Source of the DNA: Candidatus Sumerlaeota bacterium
Lineage (GTDB): Bacteria; Sumerlaeota; Sumerlaeia; MWCT01; JAUWMI01
NCBI GenBank assembly: GCA_030613245.1
Contig: JAUWMI010000007.1
Span: 1 to 64,000, forward strand
Length of the DNA stretch: 64,000 nucleotides
Direction: 5' to 3'
This document shows, piece by piece, positions 16,401 to 19,725 of the stretch; the first letter of the stretch is position 1, and the number at the start of each line of letters is the position of its first letter. Under the pieces are notes generated by a model that saw nothing but the letters and a program-made list of their open reading frames with translations, did not search any database and was not told the DNA's origin. A program made the translations under genes and the position numbers.

Positions 16401-19400
16401 GTGAGCAAGACCTTTGACCAGGGCAAAGAGGAAATCTCGAAGCTGTGCCGGTATTTCGAGACCAACAGCCAGGCGTTTCTCACCCCAGGCATCAAGGAAG
16501 CCCACGTGCGCCAATCCCTGATCGACCCGTTCTTTGAAGCCCTGGGCTGGGACGTACGCAACACCGAGATGGTCGCGCCACAATACCGGGAAGTTATTCC
16601 CGAGGATAGCCTTGACGTGGAAGGCCACCAGAAGTCCCCGGATTACACCTTCCGCATCGGCGAGACGCCGAAGTTTTACGCCGAAGCCAAGAGGTGCGGC
16701 ATCAATATCAATGCCGACCCTGTCCCGGCCTACCAGCTTCGACGGTACGGATGGAGCGCCAAGGTAGCGTTCTCCATTCTGACCGACTTCCAGGAATTGG
16801 GCGTTTACGACTGCACCATGCGCCCGCGCCAAAGCGACAAGGCGAGTCGAGCACGAATTCAGTACTTCCGGTTTGAGGAATACCCGGACCGCTGGCGCGA
16901 GTTGTGGGACGTCTTCTCGCGCGAAGCTGTCTGGTCCGGCGCTTTCGACCAGAAGGCCGCGTCCAAGCGAAAGCACGGTACGTCCGAAGTGGACGTGGAG
17001 TTTCTGAAGGAAATCGAAGGCTGGCGCGACGCCCTGGCCCAAAACATCGCCATTCGAAACAAGGACCTTTCATCGGACGACCTGAACGCCGCCGTTCAAC
17101 GCACGATTGACCGCGTCATATTCCTGCGGATGGCTGAAGACCGGGGGATCGAGTCTTACGAGCAGCTTCTGAAACTGTGCGACCGGCCCGACATCTACGC
17201 GCGGTTCATGCGCGGCCTGTGCCGCAAGGCTGACGAGAAGTACAACTCCGGCCTGTTCCATTTCCAGAAGGAAAGCGGCGTATCCGAAGCGCCCGACCGA
17301 ATCACGCCGAAGCTGACAGTTGATGACAAGGTGTTCAAGCCCATCCTGCAAAGCATCTACTTCGCCCACGGTTCGCCCTATCACTTCGGCGTCATGCCCG
17401 TTGAAATCCTTGGAACCGTTTACGAGCGGTTTCTGGGCAAAGTCATCAGGCTGACGGCAGGCCACCAGGCGAAGATCGAGGAAAAGCCCGAAGTGCGCAA
17501 GGCCGGAGGCGTTTACTACACGCCCGCCTATATTGTGAATTACATCGTCAAAAACACGGTGGGGAAGCAGATCGAGGGTCGCAGCCCCACGAAACTGGCG
17601 GGCGCGAAGGGCAAGCAGCCATTCCGCGTCCTCGACATGGCATGCGGGAGCGGGTCTTTCCTCCTGGGCGCGTACCAGTGCCTGCTGGATCACTGCCTGA
17701 AGTGGTATATCGAACACAGGCCCGCAACCCACAAGAGGGCGGTGTATGCGGTCAAAAAAAGTGGCACGTGCTTCCAGCCCGTGATGAATCATGGGCGAGA
17801 CGCCCATGCCACGGAGTGGCGGCTGACGATCGAGGAAAAGAAACGCATCCTCACGACGCACATCTTCGGCGTGGACATAGATCCCCAGGCCGTGGAAGTT
17901 ACCAAGCTGTCGCTGCTGCTGAAGGTGCTGGAAGGCGAAACACAGGAAACCATTCAGCTTGATTGGCTGTCATTCAAGGACCGCGCCCTGCCCAACCTGG
18001 CCGACAACATCAAGTGCGGCAATTCCCTGATTGGCCCCGACTACTTCACTGACAGCCTGATCCCCGACCTCGAGGAAATCAAGCGGATCAATCCGTTCGA
18101 CTGGAAGCAAGGCTTCCCCGACGCGATGAAAGCCGGGGGCTTCGACTGCATCATCGGCAACCCGCCCTATGTCCGCCAGGAAACTCTCGGCGGGGCATTT
18201 AAAGATTATGCGCAATCTCATTTCTCTGTTTTCGGCAGCACGGCTGATCTTTATGTGTATTTCATCGAGCAGGCGCACCGGTTGCTCCGACGCGCCGGGT
18301 GGTTCGGCATGATTTGCTCCAATAAGTTCATGCGCGCCAATTACGGAAAGGCTTTGCGCAATTTTCTGGCTCAGAAAACAACGCTGCTTCAGATTGTCGA
18401 TTTCGGCGAACTCCCTGTCTTCCAGAAGGCCGCCACCTTCCCGGCCATTTTCCTCACTAAAAATTCACTGGCGGCCAATCAGCAATTCATTTATGCCCCC
18501 GTGAAGCGACTGAATTTTTCGTCTCTTGAAGAGGAAGTCCAGGCTATCGGAGCGCAACTGGATGATCGTTCGCTTGCGGGCGACAACTGGACGCTCGCTC
18601 GCAGCGAGGAGGTGGCGATCTTTGAGAAGATGAAGCGGATCGGCGTGCCGCTGGGCGAATATGTAGGAGGCAAGATCTACCGTGGCGTCCTTACGGGTCT
18701 GAACGAGGCATTCATCATCGACCGCGCCACGCGCGACCGCCTGATCCGCAAGCACAAGAAAAGCGCGGAACTCATCAAACCCTTCGTTGTGGGTGACGAC
18801 ATCCGGAAGTATCAGATCAATTTCCGGGAAAAGTACTTGATCCTTATTCCCAGAGGCTGGACGCGCGCAAAAATGACAGGAAAACGTGATGCCTGGAAGT
18901 GGTTTCAGCAGAACTACCCCGCTCTGGCTAAACGCTTGGCCCCTTATGCTCAAGCTGCTGAAAACCGTTGTGATAAAGGCGACTATTGGTGGGAACTCCG
19001 GGCATGTGATTATTACGACGAATTTGAAAAGCCGAAGATTGTTTGGCCCGAGATTGCGATGAGTAACAGGTTTTGTTTAGATCAAGAGAAATATTCTCTC
19101 AACAAAACCTGCTTCTTCAGTCCAACAAGCGAATTATTCGTATTGGGATTGCTCAATTCTCAACTCATTTGGTTCTTTATGAAAAATCTATGTTCTGTAT
19201 TGGGTGATGCCAATAAGCGAGGGCGATTGTTGCAGCAAAAGATATATATTGAACAACTCCCGATCCGCCCGATCAACTTCTCCGACAAGTCGGATAAGGT
19301 AAGGCACGACCGCATGGTTTCGCTGGTCGATTCCATGCTGGCCTTGTATAAGCAGCTCGGCGCCGTGAAGTCGGAGGCGCAGAAGGACGTTATCCAGCGC

Positions 19401-19499
19401 CAGATTGACGCGACGGACGCGGAGATTGATCGGCTGGTGTATGAGCTTTACCAGCTGACGGACGAGGAGATCGCCATCGTGGAAGGGGAAAAACATTAA
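16401..19499 (+). CDS. Type IIG restriction-modification enzyme (fused nuclease and adenine methyltransferase)
   Basis: A 1,032-residue single-chain enzyme. The N-terminal nuclease shows a PD-(D/E)xK site, P80-D81 and E95-A96-K97. The methyltransferase has motif I DMACGSGSF (from D412) and catalytic NPPY (from N587), followed by a TaqI-like target-recognition region to the C-terminus. It would cleave and N6-methylate the same target using S-adenosylmethionine. The GTG start at 16401 has GAAGGA 9 bases upstream. Residues 454-471, between motif I and EKKRIL, come from a palindromic repeat inserted in frame; relatives normally have a short loop there. GC content is visibly higher than in neighbouring genes, suggesting transfer. 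No separate specificity subunit or methylase is adjacent. Activity after the insertion is unknown. Confidence 0.9.
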   Translation: MSKTFDQGKEEISKLCRYFETNSQAFLTPGIKEAHVRQSLIDPFFEALGWDVRNTEMVAPQYREVIPEDSLDVEGHQKSPDYTFRIGETPKFYAEAKRCGININADPVPAYQLRRYGWSAKVAFSILTDFQELGVYDCTMRPRQSDKASRARIQYFRFEEYPDRWRELWDVFSREAVWSGAFDQKAASKRKHGTSEVDVEFLKEIEGWRDALAQNIAIRNKDLSSDDLNAAVQRTIDRVIFLRMAEDRGIESYEQLLKLCDRPDIYARFMRGLCRKADEKYNSGLFHFQKESGVSEAPDRITPKLTVDDKVFKPILQSIYFAHGSPYHFGVMPVEILGTVYERFLGKVIRLTAGHQAKIEEKPEVRKAGGVYYTPAYIVNYIVKNTVGKQIEGRSPTKLAGAKGKQPFRVLDMACGSGSFLLGAYQCLLDHCLKWYIEHRPATHKRAVYAVKKSGTCFQPVMNHGRDAHATEWRLTIEEKKRILTTHIFGVDIDPQAVEVTKLSLLLKVLEGETQETIQLDWLSFKDRALPNLADNIKCGNSLIGPDYFTDSLIPDLEEIKRINPFDWKQGFPDAMKAGGFDCIIGNPPYVRQETLGGAFKDYAQSHFSVFGSTADLYVYFIEQAHRLLRRAGWFGMICSNKFMRANYGKALRNFLAQKTTLLQIVDFGELPVFQKAATFPAIFLTKNSLAANQQFIYAPVKRLNFSSLEEEVQAIGAQLDDRSLAGDNWTLARSEEVAIFEKMKRIGVPLGEYVGGKIYRGVLTGLNEAFIIDRATRDRLIRKHKKSAELIKPFVVGDDIRKYQINFREKYLILIPRGWTRAKMTGKRDAWKWFQQNYPALAKRLAPYAQAAENRCDKGDYWWELRACDYYDEFEKPKIVWPEIAMSNRFCLDQEKYSLNKTCFFSPTSELFVLGLLNSQLIWFFMKNLCSVLGDANKRGRLLQQKIYIEQLPIRPINFSDKSDKVRHDRMVSLVDSMLALYKQLGAVKSEAQKDVIQRQIDATDAEIDRLVYELYQLTDEEIAIVEGEKH
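17761..17812 (+). repeat. GRDAHAT-type two-hairpin palindrome inserted in the restriction gene
   Basis: Hairpin 1 spans 17765-17783 (CACGTGCT, loop TCC, AGCCCGTG, one mismatch). Hairpin 2 spans 17790-17808 (CATGGGCG, loop AGA, CGCCCATG, perfect 8-bp stem). GTGGC at 17761 pairs with GCCAC ending at 17812, closing both. In this frame it encodes SGTCFQPVMNHGRDAHAT. I recognise this peptide signature as a recurrent product of a REP-like repeat scattered in many uncultured bacteria and planctomycete-like genomes. Confidence 0.75.
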
Positions 19500-19710
19500 C
19501 CACAAAGACACGAAGACACCAAGAGACCAAGATTTCTTTGTGTCTTTGTGCCTTAGTGGTGAAAAAAAGTAAAAACGGGAGGAATTCTAACCACCAAGAC
19601 ACGAAGACACAAAAATAGAAGGACATGAGGAATTTTTTCTGTGTGCCTTTGTGGTGAGAAAAAAAACCATGGAAGGCGAAAAACACTAACTACGAAGACA
19701 CCAAGACATG
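19480..19710. repeat. Interspersed CACGAAGACAC-type repeats with duplicated gene tail
   Basis: After the restriction gene, units starting AACCACAAAGACACGAAGAC (19498), AACCACCAAGACACGAAGAC (about 19590) and AACTACGAAGACACC (about 19688) recur. Their other ends carry inverted GTGTCTTTGTG or GTGTGCCTTTGTGGT sequences, so each unit is an inverted-repeat element. The gene's terminal sequence GGAAGGGGAAAAACATTAAC (19481-19500) reappears as GGAAGGCGAAAAACACTAAC (19671-19690), showing a 190-base tandem duplication that took the end of the coding region with it. Confidence 0.65.
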
Positions 19711-19725
19711 GAAGGATAGGGGATT

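Follow-up and report, generated by a model that had tools for sequence, protein, structure and literature searches.

A REPIN-like doublet encoded in frame in a Type IIG restriction-modification enzyme of Sumerlaeota, at a loop that holds unrelated palindromes in homologues

The window analyzed here is a 64,000-nucleotide stretch of a Candidatus Sumerlaeota genome (assembly GCA_030613245.1, contig JAUWMI010000007.1, positions 1 to 64,000). Positions 16401-19499 on its plus strand encode a 1032-residue Type IIG restriction endonuclease-methyltransferase with a GTG start. The PADLOC model REase_MTase_IIG (PDLC03604) matches residues 8-1027 of this ORF (E=2.7e-204), Pfam detects Eco57I, N6_Mtase, and TaqI_C domains, and the protein has the Type IIG architecture, with a nuclease, an N6-adenine methylase, and a TaqI-like specificity domain fused in one chain. 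Structural matches include CamA, M.BseCI, BrxX, BpuSI (3s1s), and MmeI (5hr4). By inspection, we assigned a putative PD-(D/E)xK nuclease motif, SPDYTFRIGETPKFYAEAKRC, to 16638-16697 on the plus strand; the motif is intact, and P80, D81, E95, and K97 (PD..ExK) are invariant in the homologue alignment A1. Methylase motif I (DMACGSGSF, residues 412-420, 17634-17661, plus strand; invariant columns D412 and C415-F420) and motif IV (NPPY, residues 587-590, 18159-18170, plus strand; N587-P589 invariant, Y590 nearly so) are also intact.

The coding sequence contains a 52-bp REPIN-like inverted doublet (17761-17812, plus strand) that begins with GTGGC at 17761 and closes with GCCAC at 17812. Its first REP unit, GTGGCACGTGCTTCCAGCCCGTG (17761-17783, plus strand), has one mismatch to the genome consensus GTGGCACGGGCTTCCAGCCCGTG, and the second, GTGGCATGGGCGTCTCGCCCATG (17790-17812, minus strand), is inverted. 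Hairpin 1 (17765-17783) contains one T.C mismatch, hairpin 2 (17790-17808) has a perfect 7-bp stem, and the spacer ATGAAT separates them. The DNA of the element folds with z = -3.5 (1 of 200 shuffles was equally stable), and hairpin 2 matches nowhere else in the window (0 expected). Four of the six frames are stop-free across the element, among them the one in use, which reads ...AVYAVKK-SGTCFQPVMNHGRDAHAT-EWRLT... The original prediction had described two hairpins closed by GTGGC/GCCAC and inserted in frame, which is what we found, and had placed them in the methylase domain of a Type IIG enzyme, an assignment that Pfam and PADLOC uphold. An A7 run (17754-17760, plus strand), a possible slippage site, abuts the 5' side of the element. 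We also considered an antisense terminator, given the minus-strand T7 run past the doublet, yet the terminator scan reports none.

Is the element part of a repeat family in its host? We scanned the 4.29-Mb host genome (97 contigs), taking the copy census from pattern matches and fetched loci. Further genomic copies, for which the original prediction had proposed a search, are present: a second full copy of the doublet lies at G000:C8:37291-37342, along with about 54 units of the form GTRGCAYRGSC-loop-GSCYRTG, for which the reversed-pattern control returned 0. The window and C8 copies agree at all but 4 of 52 positions, and two of the changes compensate each other within the inner stem; both copies are inverted doublets with their tags on the outside. 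The tag is GTGG in the window copy and in most units, and GTAG in a minority of the same kind. GCYAC follows 15-60 nt downstream of 15 of the 54 units, compared with 4 for a control motif, and 10 further genomes of the class contain such units, one of them as many as 68. Eight GTGG/GTAG units are clustered within 1.5 kb at one host locus (L149; contig C42, 39453-40919).

Most of the 54 units have no long ORF across them. The units that fall in genes with Pfam support are both window units plus an in-frame REP of the same family in a DUF7948/SBBP protein (L017, about position 1500; G000:C48:61438); unit 9 (L145) falls in a 327-residue ORF. The expectation that such repeats are usually intergenic is therefore true of this genome, but intragenic REPs have been documented elsewhere (PMC3733652).

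The host genome also encodes three RAYT-like (REP-associated tyrosine transposase) genes. Two of them (L124 and L125) exceed the NF047646 cut-off of 80 bits, with scores of 95.4 and 92.6 between them, whereas the remaining one (L126) scores 70.8 and does not reach it. One of the two above the cut-off (L124/L152) has GTGG/GTAG-type REPs at its 5' end, inside its own ORF, and past its stop, and these REPs are similar, though not identical, to the units of the element. In detail, a REP forms the N-terminal codons of this RAYT (L152 1440-2045, minus strand; contig C92), its frame contains another REP and tandem GTGGCACCGGGGAGGG repeats, and two REPs follow the stop.

The inserted residues are found in 0 of the 56 aligned homologous ORFs that cover the region, so the concern that homologues might carry the same residues is answered by the alignment. 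On this comparison the insertion is lineage-specific, since all 56 homologues lack it. A near-identical empty site was not found among the homologues, the closest of which has 79% protein identity. The distance from the conserved DH to KRIL is 55 residues in the window enzyme and 39 in its nearest homologues; between AVY and WRLT there are 7 residues in close relatives and 23 in the window enzyme. The net gain is thus 16 residues (48 nt), fewer than the 18 originally proposed, although the element itself does encode about 18. Because 52 nt is not a multiple of three, either about 4 nt went missing or the native loop or turn was not the same.

An AlphaFold model of the window enzyme (mean pLDDT 84.3, pTM 0.77) contains only one long stretch with pLDDT below 50, residues 455-469, located between strands 448-451 and 472-475. 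The insert is thus predicted to form a disordered tip on a surface beta-hairpin, in the part of the methylase that separates motifs I and II. The original prediction had regarded the insertion as testing an essential catalytic element. Instead, the predicted hairpin tip varies in length, and two homologues hold unrelated palindromes there. In L056, an in-frame palindrome with an 18-bp stem, AGACCCTTCGGGTTTTGC..GCAAAACCCGAAGGGTCT, occupies the same loop, and in L058 the same loop contains CCCCTCTCCC..GGGAGAGGGG, again in frame.

Palindromes recur at other loops of the family. The turn immediately before GFDCVIGNPPY contains four different in-frame palindromes (L046, L054, L060, and L091), and more lie in a loop around residue 262 (L077 and L091). 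Altogether, three loops are recurrent, at window residues of about 262, 455, and 576, and the repeats in them are unrelated and in frame. Among the 14 palindromes with stems of at least 11 bp, there were 9 close cross-locus pairs compared with 2.4 expected, a non-random clustering (p about 0.003). Several of the 14 come from L091, where the coding sequence is broken across frames, and some have no accompanying insertion and could be plain coding sequence. Scattered arms matching AGACCYKWMRGGTTT number 51 in the genome of L056, 257 in that of L091, and 94 in that of L054; the whole L056 palindrome has no exact copy elsewhere in its genome, where the arms alone are dispersed. Homologues at 13 loci on viral contigs added no palindromes with stems of at least 11 bp. 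Enrichment in the enzyme family as a whole was not shown, with 0.105 palindromes per kb compared with 0.075 per kb in neighboring ORFs. Since these densities are close, we claim clustering at the loops and no special attraction to the gene. The surviving insertions are located where the fold tolerates them, and the enzyme family is not a demonstrated special target.

We consider it very probable that a REPIN inserted at a permissive loop of the Type IIG enzyme and was tolerated, with the translated peptide as a neutral by-product. We read the element as a REPIN because the host carries a second copy and about 54 units, as well as RAYTs, one of which is flanked by similar REPs. The element would be a non-autonomous mobile repeat, built of two GTGG-tagged REP units in inverted orientation and probably mobilized by a RAYT transposase, that entered the coding DNA for this surface hairpin tip between motifs I and II of the methylase. 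This event would have added 48 nt net while keeping the frame, and its translation would form a disordered loop of 16-18 residues that the enzyme tolerates. The site would be one of about three permissive loops that unrelated palindromic repeats have hit independently in this family. Survival in genes is nevertheless rare, and the location of most other host copies outside any confirmed gene counts against the neutral-insertion reading.

Could the insertion have damaged the enzyme? An insert near the SAM-binding core of the methylase domain might inactivate or unbalance it, leaving a protein that is dead or that methylates without cutting, and an element this near consensus, and hence recent, could sit in a frame that is open merely because of its recency. 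We consider this unlikely. All 1032 codons are open and every invariant nuclease and methylase residue is present, the AlphaFold model places the insert at a flexible hairpin tip, and homologues with insertions in the same loop keep intact frames and family scores. Moreover, loss of the methylase alone is unlikely to be kept, because an active nuclease with no methylation to accompany it would be toxic. The converse option raised in the original prediction, a nuclease inactivated with methylation spared, has nothing in its favor: the PD..ExK motif and all invariant columns are intact, and the insert lies in the methylase domain and not in that of the nuclease.

Repeated hits on the same loops across the family could instead mean that the peptide has taken on a function, such as altered specificity, regulation, or protein contacts. 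This is very unlikely, as the inserted peptides are unrelated in sequence and depend on the repeat family present in each genome, the model shows the window insert as disordered, and strong palindromes are about as frequent here as in neighboring ORFs. We give similarly little credence to the idea that the A7 run and the REPIN hairpin form a slippery site for polymerase or ribosome, yielding the full enzyme plus a shortened, nuclease-bearing product that ends near 17962 in the -1 frame. In that case the restriction enzyme would have gained an on/off or dosage switch from a mobile repeat. Finally, repeats favor misassembly and the genome is a 97-contig draft, but an assembly or binning artifact is highly improbable because the flanks form one continuous ORF, colinear with homologues both before and after one clean insertion, and a chimera would not preserve both frame and homology.

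The preferred reading, a tolerated REPIN insertion, has precedents. Intragenic REPs of the GTAG superfamily are short tagged palindromes, often inverted dimers, that encode 20-30 residues in ORFs (Di Nocera et al. 2013, PMC3733652), and different REPs occupy about the same recB site in two Xanthomonas species (PMC3733652). The window element likewise consists of tagged inverted palindromes within an ORF, but the tag of its family is mostly GTGG, and recurrence in the Type IIG family spans phyla and involves unrelated repeat families. Because in-frame REPs in coding genes, including the two at recB, were already described there, the window case is a clear new example and not a new phenomenon; restriction and methyl genes do not come up in a search of that paper's main text. 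Like the REPINs mobilized by RAYTs (Bertels and Rainey 2011, PMC3116915), the element is a hairpin-forming inverted REP doublet in a genome with RAYTs, one of them REP-flanked. It differs in being compact, at 52 bp compared with common inter-REP spacings of 71 and 110 bp, in its low copy number, and in its genic location. The Rickettsia palindromic elements (Ogata et al. 2002, as cited in PMC3733652) are also palindromic repeats in frame within protein genes; as described in the citing paper they carry a CGTC tag, whereas the window element ends in GTGGC/GCCAC, lacks that tag, and is unrelated in sequence.

These results extend in-frame REP insertion to a restriction-modification enzyme. They show, within a single enzyme family, a convergence of unrelated palindromic repeats from distant bacteria on a small number of shared loops. 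Permissive sites in multidomain enzymes are thus marked by repeat insertions that arose naturally. They also call for caution in annotation, as repeat-encoded peptides should not be taken for conserved motifs.

Two further observations concern other repeats. Minus-strand RAYT-like ORFs at the locus of the third such gene (L126) contain other in-frame, repeat-like peptides (GVLQYAP and RAGTRPAPT), which suggests further repeat families in coding sequence. Additionally, three copies of a ACCACAAAGACACGAAGACACC-type repeat, together with inverted copies, occupy window positions 19483-19712, immediately past the Type IIG stop.
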